In this document: piece after piece, positions 16,077 to 25,068 of the stretch
Position numbering within the stretch: the first letter of the stretch is position 1
How the letters are laid out: each line of letters opens with the position of its first letter
Origin: a virus
Reading direction: 5' to 3' (one strand)
DNA length: 25,068 nucleotides
Virus record (IMG/VR): IMGVR_UViG_3300005935_000126
Location: 1-25,068 of that record
Translations under genes and position numbers: made by a program
The notes under the pieces: generated by a model
What the model was told of the DNA's origin: nothing
Databases searched by the model: none
The model's input: only the letters and a program-made list of their open reading frames with translations

Positions 16077-16457
16077 TTAAGTAGTTTCAATAACTACTCC
16101 ATAATCATCGTGTAACTTAGCTGTGCCCCAAATTGCATACCAAGCTAAACCTCTTTCTCTTCCGAAATCTACTACGCCATTATCTCTTAACTCAACAGGG
16201 AGGGCAACAGCTAATCCAAAATAAGCTTCACCGAAAATTACTGACTGAAATACGTCAACTGAACCAACAGCAGCATTTACAAGAGCAGCTAGATATGCAG
16301 GGTCAGCAGCACCAACAGCACCATTACGCATAAGAGTAGTTTCAATAAATCTTGTATCATCAATTTTACCAATCTCACCATTAAACAACTGCTCTGGAGC
16401 ACCATATTTGGAAGCTTCAATCCATGCTGAATCATCTCTTAAACCACGTGACTGATG
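16077..16457 (-). CDS. Major capsid protein, exon 2 (N4-gp56 family)
   Basis: The second exon encodes 126 residues, starting HQSRGLRDDSAWIEASKYGAP and continuing EQLFNGEIGKIDDTRFIETT, a strong signature of N4-gp56 family capsid proteins. The C-terminal GEAYFGLAVALPVELRDNGVVDFGRERGLAWYAIWG is also typical. It has no start codon with a ribosome binding site; a TTG exists only across the intron boundary. Joined to exon 1 at ...CFVHP/HQSRGL the reading frame is continuous and the family pattern H-P-[HDY]-Q is restored. It should not be read as a separate or broken gene. Confidence 0.93.
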   Translation of the reverse strand, partial: HQSRGLRDDSAWIEASKYGAPEQLFNGEIGKIDDTRFIETTLMRNGAVGAADPAYLAALVNAAVGSVDVFQSVIFGEAYFGLAVALPVELRDNGVVDFGRERGLAWYAIWGTAKLHDDYGVVIETT

Positions 16458-17423
16458 CAAACTGTTACTTTCCCTCTTGAGAGGTACTGACCAAGTTTTA
16501 ACTTGGCGGAGAAACTACTTCGTTGAAGGTTGTTCACTCCTTCGAGTTTCTCTCTCGTAATTTCTTACGATGTTCAGACTATATCACTATCCCCTTTTCA
16601 AGGATACTTCAGCCCATAGTCGTTGCAAGGGTATTTGGTTTATCAATGGTATAAGGTCTTTTTATCTTATATCTCATTGACGGAATTATAAAAGGCTCAA
16701 TAATATTCAAAAACTTTTGTGTAAACTCAGTACCGATATAAATCTTAATTCTCTGCTTCATAGATTTACTATTTTTCTTTTTAGATATTATTCCAAACTT
16801 TATGTCTAGCATATCTATTAGTAAATCCACTTCACTTTCCTTGTACCTATCTGTGGATAATATTATTACTGAATTTCTTGTTTTCAGTCTAGGTGTTATG
16901 CTTACATACTCACAACCGCCATCATCCATAAACCAATAGGCTAAGCTTCTCTCGGTAACTAAATCTACTACATTATGAGGAACTCCTCTTACATTCCCAC
17001 TCCAAAACATTGAAAGTATTTCTTTTAAATTACTAGAAGATAGTGTGTTAAAATACCATACTGGATATTTTCTATCTTTCTCTTTAGGTGGAGAACCACA
17101 TAAATTTTTAAATATTTTATATTTATGTGTTACATAGTTTTTTTGTTTCAAGCAATGAGTAATTTGAAACCTTGTACTTGTACTTGAAACATTATGTATT
17201 GCTATATCACCTAAACAACACCCTATCAATACTTCTTTCTGTAATTCATTCATATATTTTCTCCTATCTTGTTTTATATAAGAGTAACATATGTTCAATG
17301 TTTTATCTAGTGTCATCAACCTTCTCTCAGGATTGGCGTATATACGTGATTTGATATACTTAGCGTCCCCTGATTTCGCCAAAATTATTCCTTCACGACT
17401 TACGCCGCAATGCCCCCACTATA
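16458..17423 (-). mobile_element. Group I self-splicing intron in the capsid gene (966 nt), carrying a homing endonuclease
   Basis: Exon 1 ends ...GTTCACCCT and the intron begins TATAGTGGGGGC, so CCCU can pair with GGGG (terminal U-G wobble) as P1 over a 6-base loop. The Q-like element CCAATCCTGAG lies near 17325-17336. GACTAT (16616-16621) and ATAGTC (16577-16582, within GATATAGTCTGAACA) can pair as P7 and match R and S element sequences. The 3' part has hairpins typical of P9 (CGTAA-GAAA-TTACG, a long GAGAAACT/AGTTTCTC stem, CCAAGT-TAAA-ACTTGG, CCTC-TCAA-GAGG), and the intron ends in G at 16458. Removing it joins the capsid exons exactly in phase. The splice sites are predicted, not measured. 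Confidence 0.92.
16609..17253 (-). CDS. LAGLIDADG homing endonuclease encoded in the intron
   Basis: The 214-residue protein should cut intron-less capsid alleles and so spread the intron. Two LAGLIDADG motifs are visible: VLIGCCLGDIAI at residues 8-19 (acidic Asp16) and LAYWFMDDGG at 104-113 (Asp110/111). The second has the form common in the LAGLIDADG group of intron-encoded DNA endonucleases, with downstream ILSTDRYKESEVDLLIDML and PFIIPSMRYKI. Start: ATG at 17251-17253 has AGGAG seven bases upstream, and the frame upstream is open but part of the intron core. The last codons overlap the 5' strand of P7. It appears intact. Confidence 0.9.
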   Translation of the reverse strand: MNELQKEVLIGCCLGDIAIHNVSSTSTRFQITHCLKQKNYVTHKYKIFKNLCGSPPKEKDRKYPVWYFNTLSSSNLKEILSMFWSGNVRGVPHNVVDLVTERSLAYWFMDDGGCEYVSITPRLKTRNSVIILSTDRYKESEVDLLIDMLDIKFGIISKKKNSKSMKQRIKIYIGTEFTQKFLNIIEPFIIPSMRYKIKRPYTIDKPNTLATTMG

Positions 17424-18083
17424 AGGGTGAACAAAACAAATCCAGAACCCAAAATTGAATTTTGTTGCATTGTTTGTAGCAAGAACTTCAATAGCATCTT
17501 TAACAGTGGACACTTTAAAAGTACAAGTAACATCCAATGTTGCTCTTGAAGAAATAACTGTTCCTGTGCTTGTTTTTGCATAAACAACATTTGTACCTGT
17601 CAATGCAACATCCCTTAAATCAGTATCAAGAACTAAAGCGTAATCCCTTGCAAGTAATATTGCTGCAGAACCCATAACACTATCAAAAGAAGCAACGATT
17701 AACAACTGTGAAACTGTAACTCCATTACCCTTTTCAAGAACAGTGATAGGTGTCAAGCTACCGCTTAAAGCTTTAGTCTCAATACGAGTTCCCTCTGTTA
17801 ATGTTCCACCCTGTGTAAGATTGTCATACACAAGCATATTAATTGTAAGTCCAGGCTCTACACCTAGCTCAGTTTTAATATCTGTGAATTGAAGAAATCT
17901 CATAATAGGTAATGCCTGAAACTCAATTTCTTTCGAGTAAACTGTCTTAACGGACTCACTGAACGTACCTGCTGTATGACCATCCAAAGCACCTGATACA
18001 CCATCAGTAGTAGTCATAAAACTTGTTGCGTGAGCCTTCATGATAAATTTACTGAATATTGAATTTAAAAATCTTATTTTCAT
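17424..18083 (-). CDS. Major capsid protein, exon 1 (N4-gp56 family)
   Basis: Exon 1 gives 220 residues of the N4-gp56-type capsid protein, and the spliced product would have about 346. The leader IFSKFIMKAHA occupies residues 9-19. The body follows with VYSKEIEFQALPIMRFLQFTDIKTELGVEPG, TINMLVYDNLTQGGTLTEGTRIETKALS, LLARDYALVLDTDLRDVALTGTNVVYA and NNATKFNFGFWICFVHP. Two ATGs lie close together. The one at 18087-18089 abuts GGAGGT with no spacing, while the one at 18081-18083 has six bases, so the latter is chosen. Read unspliced, the frame runs only a few codons into the intron and stops. Confidence 0.92.
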
Positions 18084-18105
18084 CTTCATACCTCCAATTT
18101 AATAT

Positions 18106-18990: not shown

Positions 18991-20508
18991 CTAAACCTTA
19001 CCCGCTTTATTTGCTCCCTTTATTTCTTTTCTTGTTGCTTCAATAGAACTTTCACCATTTTTTAGTCCACTATTTAATTGTTTTTCTTTTGAGGACGTAT
19101 AAATTTCTTCATGTTCTTTTCTATCCTTGTCTATTGCTTTAATTTTAGTTTCTATGTTCTCTTTATTTAATCTCTTCATTGCTCCCATTCTATCTTCTAA
19201 TCCTAGGTTCATTTCTTCACCAATTTGCTGTAACTCAATTATGTTATCTTTTGGCAAAGTATCTGGAAGACTTACCTCATTATGATAAAATACTGCTGGT
19301 TTCATTTTTTCTGGTCTACTCACAAGTCCTTCTTTTAATGAAATAAGTAATATCAAAGCATTTACTTGTTCCAGTCCTACTTTACTTCCCAATCTTTTTA
19401 CTCTTGTTCTTTCTATGATGGGCATATTAACAAACTGCAAAGCTACACCAGAAGTGTTACTTATTGATTGTGTTCCTCCTAATGCTCCCTCTGGAACTCC
19501 CCCTACTTCATACATAGTTTGTTTGAGTTCATCAATGTAATTTACAGCGGCCGTTAAATCTGACTCTAAAGCTAGGTTCTGTACTTTGGCATCTTTAGGT
19601 AATCCACCCCATACTTTATTTACGCCTTTTTCAAGGTTACTTATTTTTGCACCGAAAACTATTGTAATTGGAGCTGCATGATATTCTATTATTTCTGAAA
19701 TATCAGATACCTTTGTATTAAGTTCCACATTCAACGGAATTAAGTCTTCTAGGTCACCTAGTCCTTCACTCCTACCTGCTACTGTGTAATTCTTCATTTG
19801 AATAAATGGTATAATACCATATTTGTTTTCAATATTAAGAACTACTGCTTCACCCTCTTTAATTATTATTCTATCTTTGGTCCATTCTTGCTGGTAAATT
19901 ATTTTCTGCACTTTTGAACTTCCAAAGAAATTCTCTTCTTCTCTATCAATAGGGTATTGAATAATTAGTTTTATAAGTTTATCCTTATCATGCTGGTCAT
20001 AGAATGGGAACGCAACATGAGTTGGAATAACCATTATTCTTATTCTACCGTTTGGGTACTTTTCATACGGGTCATCAATTTCATCTGGAGTAGAGTATCT
20101 CACTTGTACCCAAGCATCTCCTGTTATTGCTTTCATCTGCCCTATCTCTAAACAAAGAGTTTCTCTTAAATTATCATCCCATACATCATCAAGATAATCG
20201 AAAGTATTTCTTCCTTCATCATCAATTTCAAATTCTGCTGCTTCTGCATGAGGTTCAACAACAAACCCTTTACCAAATTCAAAAGCTACAAACTTGTTAA
20301 TAAACGACCTACAATAATTATGTGTTATCTGTGGTCTATCAGTATCAGTAATATTCTCCCAATGGAAACCATCATAGAAATTCCAAGCTGTTCTTATTGA
20401 TTCTATTCTGGCTAAATCTTCTGGAGAAAGATTTCCGTTCACAGATAACAAAGCACCACTTATCACACTGTTATAATTTCTTCTGTTAAATGCCATTAAT
20501 TCACTCAA
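18991..20508 (-). CDS. Portal protein (SPP1 gp6-like)
   Basis: The 505-residue product should form the dodecameric portal through which DNA is packaged and ejected. The N-terminus has AWNFYDGFHWENI, then ITHNYCRSFINKFVAFEFGKGF, typical of SPP1-type portals. The core contains IPFIQMKNYTVAGRSEGLGDLEDLIPLNVELN and EVGGVPEGALGGTQSISNTSGVALQF, the conserved portal stem/crown segment. The charged C-terminus ends in Lys/Glu-rich sequence. The TTG start lies seven bases after a GGAGGT formed by the last codons of the terminase gene; an in-frame ATG four codons later is less well spaced. Confidence 0.93.
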   Translation of the reverse strand: MSELMAFNRRNYNSVISGALLSVNGNLSPEDLARIESIRTAWNFYDGFHWENITDTDRPQITHNYCRSFINKFVAFEFGKGFVVEPHAEAAEFEIDDEGRNTFDYLDDVWDDNLRETLCLEIGQMKAITGDAWVQVRYSTPDEIDDPYEKYPNGRIRIMVIPTHVAFPFYDQHDKDKLIKLIIQYPIDREEENFFGSSKVQKIIYQQEWTKDRIIIKEGEAVVLNIENKYGIIPFIQMKNYTVAGRSEGLGDLEDLIPLNVELNTKVSDISEIIEYHAAPITIVFGAKISNLEKGVNKVWGGLPKDAKVQNLALESDLTAAVNYIDELKQTMYEVGGVPEGALGGTQSISNTSGVALQFVNMPIIERTRVKRLGSKVGLEQVNALILLISLKEGLVSRPEKMKPAVFYHNEVSLPDTLPKDNIIELQQIGEEMNLGLEDRMGAMKRLNKENIETKIKAIDKDRKEHEEIYTSSKEKQLNSGLKNGESSIEATRKEIKGANKAGKV

Positions 20509-20513
20509 TTAGA

Positions 20514-23231
20514 CTACCTCCGTTTCGCTGTTATTTTATTTCTTGAAGTATAAAATCTACTTTGTTTCTTTTTCATTATTATATTTTCCTTCTCAGTCTC
20601 AACTACTACTGTATCAGTTTGGTCTTTTGTTCCATACACAGCTAAAGCATAACTGTCTGGATAATCGTCATGAGCTCCTCTGTTTGGTGGGTGACAAACT
20701 TGCATTACTGCGCCTTTATAGTTCTTCTGCAAATCTCCCATCTGGCTTAGAAATTGTGTGTACTCTCTGGTTCTTACTGTCATTTCTCCTCTTGGGAACA
20801 TTGACCTTTTGGACTTAATTTCTCCATCTAAATACTTGTACATATCAGACTTAGATTGAGTACTAAACACAAAAGGAATTACCTCAAAAGGAACATTGGC
20901 TTTAAACCTATCTGCAAGTGAAGCTTCTTTTGTCGAGTCAATTACTAACCTTACAATATTAAAGTTTTTGAAGAAATCCATGCATATATGATATTGTGCT
21001 TCATAATCTTCACCGAAAATCTCTTTCCAACAAACAATATCTGTATAATAGGCTTTGAAGATTTCCATCTCATTTGTCTCTTCATTGTACCGACCTTCAT
21101 CTATGACAGGGTTATCCCAGTCTACTTTAACAACTGTTATAATTGTACTATCTGTTTTAGCTGCAACATCTATACCTACTACATGGCTATTTAGTCTATT
21201 ATATTCTTCTAATTCTTTCGTTGGGTCACCATTATCTCGTTCATATCTTAGAACATCATCTATGAAAGAACCTCTTTCAAACAACCATTCTAGTTTGTAA
21301 GACATTCTAAACTCATCTGAATGTTCCCCATATCTGAACTTCTCTCCCTCTATGTATTTAGCATATGAAGGATTATATTTACACCCTATTTTGTAATCAA
21401 ACTCATAATGATTCTTTAAGTGTAACTGTCCATTGTCAAAGAACTTTTTATTTCTATCGATTGAATTAAAGAAGTCGCCCTTATAGGTTGAAGAAGTTCC
21501 TATCTTAGCTATACTTGCATTATAAAATGCTCCCATAGGCATGATGCTGTTAGAACTAATCATGTTATTTGCTATAAAATTTCTTCCCTCAGTTTTTAAA
21601 CAATAAGTATGCTTAACTCCCGAACTGACACAAGAAGTAACTTTATAAAATCTTATATTATTACTATAATGTTTAGATTTATTCCTAGTAACTCTATTTT
21701 GTATTTTATTAAGTGCTTCATCTAATAAATGTTGTTTTTTAAACAATTTAATATTATTCCCAAACCTGTTTAAATCTAAAACTGATTTTAGGGTTATTAT
21801 GTGTATTATTTTTGCATTAATACTTAATCCTTTGTTATTTTCTCTACTAAACATAGTAGTATGTATCCCAAATTTTAAGTATACATCCTTTAACTGTTTT
21901 ACAAGTTTCTCTGATATATTTGCAAATGATATATGAGGTTTATTGTAGCAATCTGCAACACAACCATCAGTCTCTATCAATCCCTCAATAACCCCTGTAT
22001 AGAAAGATTTTGAGTACAATTTATCAGGTAAACATTTATTAACACCTGTTACATTGTGCATTCCTATTTCTCTAAACCACACTGTAAGTGGGTTACTGTT
22101 TTTACAATTTGTAGGTGTAGAAAAACAAACTTCCTGCATACCATTGCTTGGATTGTAATTACACTCTGTCATATATACATTTTCACCAAAAACTTTTTTA
22201 ATAATTTCTATAAGTCTTTTATTTGTTGATAAATCACCTATAAAATGAGGTGTTCCTACTAAACAACCATCACCTAAAAAATAACCTAGTATCAAACCTT
22301 TTTCATAATCATTTTCTTGTTCTTGTGCAAAATAAGGTAAAATATCAGGAACTCCAATCCTTAAAGAAGAATATTTATCGAAACTATCTATTATATCTTT
22401 TACAGTCCTGAATTTAGGTCCTCCTTTTTTGGTATTTTTACTATAGGTGTAAAATTGGTGATTTAAAGTGGCTTCAATAGTATCTCCATTGTTCAGTTTT
22501 AACTTGTACACTTCTTGCTTTCCATTATCGTAAAACTCTACGGGAGTTTTAGAAGTAAGATAATTCATACTAGAATTAAAAAGTACTACTTCACCCTTTT
22601 TCTGTTTAACTAAAGTTTCAATATCTAAATATTCTCCGTTACTCATAAGAATTCTAGTATCATAAGTTAAGCATTTCTTAATCTTAAAGTCAGATACATC
22701 CTGGGCTTCTTCTATTATAATAAGCTTTAAACTTTCACCCTCAATATTACTATTTTCGGATGCAGATAATGAAGTTGCCCAAGATCCATTTGACAAAGAA
22801 CAAGTCTGACCATTACTCGTTGTAAAATACAAATTAAATTCGGGGTCTTGTAATATTTTCTTACACGTCTTACTCTGTAGCCTTGCTCTTATTCGATTGA
22901 AGGTAATTTGTGATTGTCTTAATGAAGGAGCGAATATACCTACCCACACACCATCTTCAAATCGCATAATTCTTTTATCTTCTTTAAACATTGGCAAAGT
23001 TGCAAGGTAGGGAAGGAATATCATTACCCCACCTACAGTAACAGCAACTGTTTCCGATTTTCCTATTTGCCTTGAGAACAAGGCTGTCAATTCTTCACCA
23101 TCATTTTCTAGTAAAGACCTTATTAATCTTTTACTAAACTGCTCTTGGTAAAGAAACAACTTTATCCCTGAATACATAGCACAAAAATCATATACTACAT
23201 TGGTTAATTCTGTAATTTTCATTAACGCCAT
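20514..23231 (-). CDS. Terminase large subunit with embedded intein (905-residue precursor, about 530 residues after splicing)
   Basis: The packaging motor has a variant Walker A (SRQIGKSET, residues 53-61), Walker B (LIIIEEAQDV, about 170-179), and the coupling motif GTSS (578-581) right after the intein. The RNase H-like nuclease domain has D688 (VVGIDVAAKTD), D765 (RLVIDSTKEA) and D855/D856/D859 (HDDYPDS). Residues 187-561 form the intein, listed separately. Without it 530 residues remain, normal for TerL. The first ATG is used, five bases after GAGGT. No small terminase subunit is present in the window; it is expected upstream, beyond the right edge. Confidence 0.95.
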   Translation of the reverse strand: MALMKITELTNVVYDFCAMYSGIKLFLYQEQFSKRLIRSLLENDGEELTALFSRQIGKSETVAVTVGGVMIFLPYLATLPMFKEDKRIMRFEDGVWVGIFAPSLRQSQITFNRIRARLQSKTCKKILQDPEFNLYFTTSNGQTCSLSNGSWATSLSASENSNIEGESLKLIIIEEAQDVSDFKIKKCLTYDTRILMSNGEYLDIETLVKQKKGEVVLFNSSMNYLTSKTPVEFYDNGKQEVYKLKLNNGDTIEATLNHQFYTYSKNTKKGGPKFRTVKDIIDSFDKYSSLRIGVPDILPYFAQEQENDYEKGLILGYFLGDGCLVGTPHFIGDLSTNKRLIEIIKKVFGENVYMTECNYNPSNGMQEVCFSTPTNCKNSNPLTVWFREIGMHNVTGVNKCLPDKLYSKSFYTGVIEGLIETDGCVADCYNKPHISFANISEKLVKQLKDVYLKFGIHTTMFSRENNKGLSINAKIIHIITLKSVLDLNRFGNNIKLFKKQHLLDEALNKIQNRVTRNKSKHYSNNIRFYKVTSCVSSGVKHTYCLKTEGRNFIANNMISSNSIMPMGAFYNASIAKIGTSSTYKGDFFNSIDRNKKFFDNGQLHLKNHYEFDYKIGCKYNPSYAKYIEGEKFRYGEHSDEFRMSYKLEWLFERGSFIDDVLRYERDNGDPTKELEEYNRLNSHVVGIDVAAKTDSTIITVVKVDWDNPVIDEGRYNEETNEMEIFKAYYTDIVCWKEIFGEDYEAQYHICMDFFKNFNIVRLVIDSTKEASLADRFKANVPFEVIPFVFSTQSKSDMYKYLDGEIKSKRSMFPRGEMTVRTREYTQFLSQMGDLQKNYKGAVMQVCHPPNRGAHDDYPDSYALAVYGTKDQTDTVVVETEKENIIMKKKQSRFYTSRNKITAKRR
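21549..22673 (-). mobile_element. Intein with LAGLIDADG homing endonuclease inside terminase
   Basis: The 375-residue element starts with Cys187 (CLTYDTRILMSNGEYLDIE, block A) and ends with Asn561, followed by Ser562 as the +1 nucleophile. Block B is TIEATLNHQF (251-260), with the TxxH histidine at 258. LAGLIDADG motifs are LILGYFLGDG (313-322) and GVIEGLIETDG (413-423). Block F/G is NFIANNMISSN. The residue before the terminal Asn is Ser instead of the usual His, an uncommon variant that can slow splicing but does not exclude it. Insertion is between Walker B and the coupling motif, a functionally essential place. Endonuclease and splice blocks look intact. Confidence 0.93.
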
Positions 23232-23538: not shown

Positions 23539-25068
23539 TCAAATCACCTCTTCATTTTCTGGAATAGTTGTTACTGACATTACGGGTATTCTTTCTGAAA
23601 GTGATAACGTAGGTAGTCTTTCTACACCTGATACAAAACACTGGTAAAAAATTGTTTCTGCAAGGTACTCTATATAGTCTCCAATATTACTATTAGCTGT
23701 TATATTCTTATTAACTACTATTATAACTGAACCTTCAACTTCTATTTCAGCAATTAAATTATGGGTGACATTTTTACCTACAATGGGTATGACTGAAACA
23801 GTACTTGTTACTTCTTTTAACTTTACCCTATATAACTCTCCTGAAACAGTTGTAGTTGCTGTAATTTCTTTAACTCTAGCTCTTGGTATTCTTCCATCAA
23901 TATTAATATATGAAGTTAATGTTTTATAGGTAGTTCGAGTAATATTACCCAAAATATTTGTTAGAGCATCTGGTAACTTAATAATAGCTTTTTGAACAGT
24001 AGATACCACAACAATATTAGAAGTTATATTTTTATATGTAACCCTACTAATTTCTGCACTAATATCTGTATTTGAAAGATAGGACTCTTCTCTACCCTTT
24101 ATTACACTTGCTGATATATTAGTGGTAGTCTGTATTGATTTAGTTATAACTCTTCCTACAGTACTACTTACTAAAGTATTACTCGTTACTGATTTAGCTC
24201 CACCGGATAAAGCATCTATGCTCCCTACAACATTAACATTTGTTAATAAAGTTTTAGGTATTGTTTTATTTACTGCTCCTATAACTTCTGAATTTGACTG
24301 AGTATTTTTCAATGAATTCTTAGTTACAGTAGATACAACGATAGAATTCCCAACAATATCTTTTAAGTAAGAAACTAATTTTATTGGTATAGAAGCCTCA
24401 ACTAAAATATTAGCTACTATACTCTTATTTATTTCTTTACTTAATACCCCACTTACTACATTACTTCCCAAAATATTTTTACTTATTTCTTTGTTAATAT
24501 TACTAGTGGTACTGCTATTTGAAATAATATTTTTATTAACGTGTGTTAATAATGTTCCTGCAACTTCAGTTGATGAAATTATATCTTTAATAGCTTTAGC
24601 CATTGTTCCAGTAACATCTACATTTGCGGTAATGTTTTTATTAACAATTGTTAGTAATGTTCCATTTACAAGACTACTTGAAATTATATTTTTATTAACA
24701 TTTGTTAATACTGTACCTGCAACATCTACATTCGTGGTGATGTTTTTATTAATAATCTTTCCTATGATTGACTCTAAAGTAACGTTTGCAGTAATACCTT
24801 TATTGTAATCAGTAAGTTTTTCTACTGAACCTAGTACTGATACTTCCGAAGTATTACTTTTATTAACATTCGTTAATAGTGTTCCAGTTGTAGCACTATT
24901 CGAGATTACATTTTTACTAGTAATTCTTGTTGTTGTCCCTAAAACATTTACATTCATAGTAACGTTTTTATCAGTAACCCTTACTGTGGTTGACTCTAAA
25001 GTAACATTTGCAGTAATACCTTTATTATAACTAGTAAGTTTTTCTGCTGAACCTAGTACTGATACTTC
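23539..25068 (-). CDS. Repeat-built fibrous protein (partial, 5' end outside window)
   Basis: The frame is open to the right edge of the window (510 codons, 509 residues plus stop). The first ATG in the window (24955-24957) is internal, because the same repeats continue upstream of it in frame without a ribosome binding site. About 17-20-residue repeats fill most of it: consensus G-[TS]-[VLM]-x(3)-[VI]-N-K-[NS]-I-x-[AS]-[NS]-x-x-V-x-G, clearest in the first 170 residues. They become more divergent later, and the last about 55 residues (YLAETIFYQCFVSGVERLPTLSL) are different. Thr, Val, Ile, Asn and Ser dominate; no signal peptide can be judged. A beta-structured fibre or adhesin fits the composition, as inference. 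Similar repeats open the gene at the left edge. Confidence 0.7.
   Translation of the reverse strand, partial: EVSVLGSAEKLTSYNKGITANVTLESTTVRVTDKNVTMNVNVLGTTTRITSKNVISNSATTGTLLTNVNKSNTSEVSVLGSVEKLTDYNKGITANVTLESIIGKIINKNITTNVDVAGTVLTNVNKNIISSSLVNGTLLTIVNKNITANVDVTGTMAKAIKDIISSTEVAGTLLTHVNKNIISNSSTTSNINKEISKNILGSNVVSGVLSKEINKSIVANILVEASIPIKLVSYLKDIVGNSIVVSTVTKNSLKNTQSNSEVIGAVNKTIPKTLLTNVNVVGSIDALSGGAKSVTSNTLVSSTVGRVITKSIQTTTNISASVIKGREESYLSNTDISAEISRVTYKNITSNIVVVSTVQKAIIKLPDALTNILGNITRTTYKTLTSYINIDGRIPRARVKEITATTTVSGELYRVKLKEVTSTVSVIPIVGKNVTHNLIAEIEVEGSVIIVVNKNITANSNIGDYIEYLAETIFYQCFVSGVERLPTLSLSERIPVMSVTTIPENEEVI
24771..25068. repeat. Near-identical direct repeat, 222-bp offset, within the fibrous protein gene
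   Basis: A stretch of about 77 bases at 24771-24847 recurs at 24993-25068 with about five substitutions, an offset of 222 bases (74 codons, about four 18-residue repeats). The second copy runs off the window. This indicates a recent in-frame duplication or gene conversion among the repeat units. Confidence 0.75.

Follow-up and report, generated by a model that had tools for sequence, protein, structure and literature searches.

Introduction

Among the closest described counterparts of the element reported here are the class 1 inteins of the mycobacteriophage TerL and RDF genes. In those phages, as in the present case, the terminase serves as the host, indeed the main one, and the inteins carry homing endonucleases (PMC5050341). 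The TerL insertion sites described there, unlike the present one, fall within the P-loop, Walker B, the C-motif, or a helix of low conservation (PMC5050341). The penultimate histidine, at block position G:6, is poorly kept in this group, its place being taken by Gly, Lys, or Ser, and the RDF intein, which has Gly at G:6, splices fully and is slowed by the G316H substitution (PMC5050341).

Approximately 5% of functional inteins lack the penultimate histidine, and all class 2 inteins have a serine at G:6 (PMC4031507). The cyanobacterial DnaE inteins have a penultimate Ser or Ala (PMC5874633). Both the DnaE inteins and the class 2 intein KlbA are functional, and they share with the intein described below a penultimate residue other than His (PMC5874633, PMC4031507). 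They differ from it in that DnaE is split and has no endonuclease, and KlbA, as a class 2 member, begins with an alanine. Mutation of the F:13 histidine was harmless in one class 2 intein, and some inteins without the G:6 histidine splice better once it is restored (PMC4031507). An arginine at B:11 has been proposed to assist asparagine cyclization in Ssp DnaE (PMC4031507).

Here we describe an intein in the gene for the terminase large subunit (TerL) of an uncultured phage. The source record, a virus contig of 25,068 bases, is referred to as the window.

Results

The TerL precursor is encoded by an ORF of 905 amino acids (20514..23231) with the intein inside; all TerL and intein features given below lie on the (-) strand. 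The N-extein (22674..23231, 186 aa) holds the Walker A and Walker B motifs, and the C-extein (20514..21548, 344 aa) holds the coupling motif, the nuclease domain, and the stop codon. The Walker A region reads SRQIGKSE (23052..23075), where relatives keep SRQSGKSE, and Walker B, located from the sequence and from the relatives, reads LIIIEEAQD (22698..22724). The Gly-Thr-Ser coupling motif, part of KIGTSST, was counted from the ORF sequence to 21492..21500, and its Gly-Thr pair is invariant across the C-extein alignment. There is a weak Pfam match of Terminase_6N to residues 51-189 of the ORF, and the C-extein matches phrog_5909, terminase large subunit. No second TerL was seen within the window, and the gene is otherwise intact.

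The portal gene (18991-20508) is the next downstream of the TerL ORF, and genes for the major head protein, tail sheath, tape measure, and baseplate are also found in the window, which indicates a contractile-tailed phage. A long ORF at 23539-25068 (-), open-ended because it is cut by the contig end, contains repeated short units (NKNITANVDVTGT-like) and matches nothing in PHROG or Pfam. On the (-) strand, the gene for the major head protein is itself split, with part 1 at 17400-18089 and part 2 at 16077-16460, approximately 0.9 kb apart, and a LAGLIDADG endonuclease ORF (16609-17382) lies between them. The two parts are contiguous in approximately 10 relatives (e.g. L011, L014, L017, and L082), and thus the insertion at 16460-17400 probably represents a self-splicing intron that encodes an endonuclease of its own. 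This candidate gave no Rfam family match, even at E values up to 1.

The intein itself spans 21549..22673 (375 aa, TerL residues 187-561, in frame), and these limits agree exactly with those given in a preliminary description of this DNA. It begins with CLTYDTRI and ends with FIANNMISSN, which is followed by the extein serine. As first proposed, it is inserted between Walker B, which ends 8 residues upstream, and the GTS coupling motif; that the TerL motor needs splicing to work is a sound inference. The Pfam Intein_splicing and TIGR01445 intein_Nterm models score 44.1 bits (cut-off 35.8) and 50.5 (cut-off 24.5), respectively, and LAGLIDADG_3 scores 47.3 bits (cut-off 22.5) over TerL residues 410-484. 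The G+C content of 27.8% in the intein, as compared to 34.1% in the exteins, fits a mobile element.

Scans with alignments of the C-extein and the N-extein yielded approximately 150 related TerL loci, and the empty site was counted in the 143 distinct ORFs that hold both TerL halves. In 137 of these there are no residues at the insertion point, and the site usually reads K|SI.PM, with Lys at -1 in 134 and Ser at +1 in 130 of the 137. The nucleophilic Ser+1 is thus one of the ordinary, conserved residues of TerL. Among the uninterrupted TerLs, the closest are 63-67% identical to the N part and about 49-51% identical to the C part. The preliminary description had named relatives with the segment in the normal TerL fold as the observation that would speak against an intein, and the 137 uninterrupted ORFs rule out such a role for the segment. 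A reading as a natural TerL insertion or extra domain, or as a BIL-type domain, is accordingly extremely unlikely. Nothing favors it except the missing histidine, and it is contradicted by the nucleophiles at both ends, by profile scores above cut-off, and by a full-length match to endonuclease-bearing inteins; moreover, the +1 nucleophile is present, unlike in BILs.

The complete fold is predicted with confidence. An AlphaFold model, built from the intein sequence together with those of eight related viral inteins, has a pLDDT of 87.1 and a pTM of 0.88, and its residues 1-375 align end to end with endonuclease-bearing inteins. It superimposes on the TliVMA intein (7qsu) with a Z-score of 31.0 (319 aligned residues, 2.9 Å) and on PI-PfuI (1dq3) with a Z-score of 27.3. 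These two solved structures share the two-domain fold over the full length of the window intein and differ from it in having only ~15-20% sequence identity and archaeal host genes. The model agrees with the splicing domain of Ssp DnaB (1mi8) to within 1.5 Å over 135 residues, and it also aligns with those of Mtu RecA and Npu DnaE. When the C-terminal 63 residues were searched against PDB sequences, only chance matches and weak DnaB-intein hits were returned.

The preliminary description held that all splice blocks are present. This stands for Cys1, the TxxH motif, Asn375, and Ser+1; it overlooked that the F:13 histidine is absent and that F:4 is a cysteine. The block A nucleophile, Cys1 (22671..22673), is found in both inteins known at the same site (see below). 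Block B contains T69-L-N-H72 (22458..22469; B:7 and B:10), of which T69 and H72 are invariant among the same-site inteins, and Gln73 (B:11) and Phe74 (B:12) directly follow. Block F reads TYC358LKTEGR364NF, with Cys358 (21600..21602) at F:4, usually an Asp, and Arg364 (21582..21584), as placed by the alignments, at F:13, usually a His. Block G reads M-I-S-S374-N375 and is followed by Ser+1 (21546..21548; G:8), which is contributed by the extein; G:5 is Ser373, and Ser374 (G:6) and Asn375 (G:7) are encoded at 21549..21554. Cys1, TxxH, Asn375 with Ser+1, an empty site in relatives, and a predicted HINT fold, all of which characterize class 1 inteins, are thus in place, and the penultimate histidine, which is usual for the class and not obligatory, is replaced by Ser374. 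Both LAGLIDADG motifs noted earlier are indeed present, GLILGYFLGDG at 22266..22298 and GVIEGLIETDG at 21963..21995. As expected for a homing endonuclease, each of the two helices keeps its catalytic acidic residue, an Asp, and the embedded enzyme is apparently intact.

The S-N/S junction, reported in place of H-N/S, was also found in an independent contig, IMGVR_UViG_3300025736_000891, which differs from the window by 8 mismatches over 7,088 bp. The 1,125 bp intein is identical in the two, and a sequencing error at the C-terminal junction is thereby ruled out. The 0 changes, where ~1.3 would be expected, are no sign of selection on the intein. The exact intein sequence is known from a single phage lineage, represented by these two near-identical contigs.

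A comparison with inteins at the same TerL site, as the preliminary description had suggested, was possible since inteins occupy the same codon in Bacteroides phage BS162P1 (OP172706.1) and in the IMG/VR contig 3300033146_003279 (hereafter L082). Like the window intein, both lie at the K|S codon and have Cys1, TxxH, a double LAGLIDADG region, and Cys at F:4. They differ from it in overall sequence (32-38% identity) and in keeping the F:13 histidine, which is Arg in the window intein. The C-terminal ends read ISSN/S in the window, VSGN/S in BS162P1, and ITHN/S in L082, and the occurrence of Ser, Gly, and His as penultimate residues at one site indicates that some members of a single allele have lost the histidine. 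In a tree of 12 viral inteins, the three form one clade (support 99/96). Since the penultimate residue is His in L082 and most outgroups, the ancestor of the same-site inteins seems to have had it too, and the pairing of the window intein with that of L082 (84/74) weakly hints that it was lost twice separately. One contig scan, using an alignment of the three sequences, found no intein relatives in bacterial genomes.

The F:4 cysteine, which occurs as TYC in each of the three same-site inteins, even the one that has a canonical HN end, might be taken to form a block F branched intermediate, either in place of Cys1 or alongside it, and Ser+1 is common in class 3 inteins (PMC5222942). Class 3 inteins are, however, marked by the lack of a nucleophile at residue 1 and by a WCT triplet (PMC5050341). 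Cys1 is present here, and of the triplet (B:12 Trp, F:4 Cys, G:5 Thr) only the cysteine is matched by Phe74, Cys358, and Ser373. Across inteins, furthermore, cysteine ranks second in frequency at F:4 (PMC4031507). A class 3 assignment is ruled out by Cys1 and the incomplete triplet, and we consider splicing of a class 3 or hybrid type to be very unlikely.

Several TerL relatives are interrupted at other positions. Inteins interrupt the loop of Walker A (RQ|SGKS) in L018, L022, and L017, that of L018 (L018:2397-2801) being a mini-intein of ~135 aa without an endonuclease, and L022 has, besides its Walker A intein, a second one in the nuclease domain (DDY|C). In L008 and L073 a further site lies 8-9 residues downstream of the present one (SIEPMLSA|T and SIHPMGAA|T, respectively), and L111 has another intein inside Walker B. 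Together with the codon shared by the same-site inteins, these positions amount to at least five intein sites in the TerL family. In the cultured Bacteroides phage BS162P1 (L004), the intein-bearing TerL (BS162P1_00018) has only the annotation "hypothetical protein". The TerL of the crAss-like phage cr53_1 (L005), which also has an intein, contains several in-frame TAG codons in both extein and intein, which fits the reported recoding of TAG in crAss-like phages (PMC7886860).

Discussion

The preliminary description implied that a penultimate residue other than His is rare, which overstates the case, for published functional inteins include some with Ser at this position (PMC4031507, PMC5050341, PMC5874633). 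The missing penultimate histidine is thus not strange, the same variation being documented in functional inteins, and neither the loss of the F:13 histidine nor a cysteine at F:4 is unprecedented. In a tally made by eye of 31 phage inteins, His was absent from G:6 in 5 and from F:13 in 9. Other non-His residues at G:6 are Ala in L091, Gly in SPbeta bnrdE and BS162P1, and Ser in L190. The window intein is the sole member of the 31 in which both histidines are missing; with one such case seen and ~1.5 expected by chance, avoidance of the double loss cannot be claimed. Since Gln73 occupies B:11, all three of the named helpers, His G:6, His F:13, and Arg B:11, are missing.

We conclude that the insertion is very probably a mobile class 1 intein with a LAGLIDADG endonuclease, which splices by the class 1 route with an asparagine step that is unassisted or differently assisted. 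Cys1, together with T69 and H72, would form the N-terminal thioester, and the N-extein would then pass to Ser+1, the residue already in place in uninterrupted TerLs. Asn375 would cyclize without the help of a penultimate histidine, and an O-N shift would join the exteins into a normal terminase of 530 amino acids with the junction peptide ..FKIKKSIMPMGAF... The asparagine step is probably aided by active-site strain and by formation of the branched intermediate, in place of the two usual histidines, and Arg364, at the F:13 position, perhaps provides a charged group. This step may be slower than in inteins that bear the histidines, and slow or incomplete splicing is possible given the absence of all three helpers. 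Splicing, its rate, and the roles of Arg364 and Cys358 are what we infer from these features.

The same losses could be read as decay, with asparagine cyclization becoming very slow or cleavage dominant, and the phage being low in TerL or defective. The missing F:13 and G:6 histidines and a B:11 residue other than Arg agree with such a state, as does the improvement seen in some inteins when the G:6 histidine is restored (PMC4031507). Yet the ORF, the endonuclease motifs, and all nucleophiles are intact, the predicted fold is complete, and the intein is unchanged in the second contig. In addition, TerL is required for packaging, so that a dead intein would be expected to disappear rapidly. Decay is therefore unlikely. 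It is quite improbable, too, that the conserved pair of Cys1 and Cys F:4, with both histidines lost, acts as a condition-dependent (e.g. redox-sensitive) brake on splicing that would allow an active motor only late in infection.

The preferred reading, a class 1 intein that splices, describes a natural intein without either of the histidines credited with catalyzing asparagine cyclization; one of them is kept in BS162P1 and both in L082. The inteins of the window, BS162P1, and L082 form a natural series that would lend itself to finding out what drives the final step of splicing and by what means inteins survive when a catalytic residue is lost. Otherwise, the locus is another case of the terminase as a favored intein host in phages.
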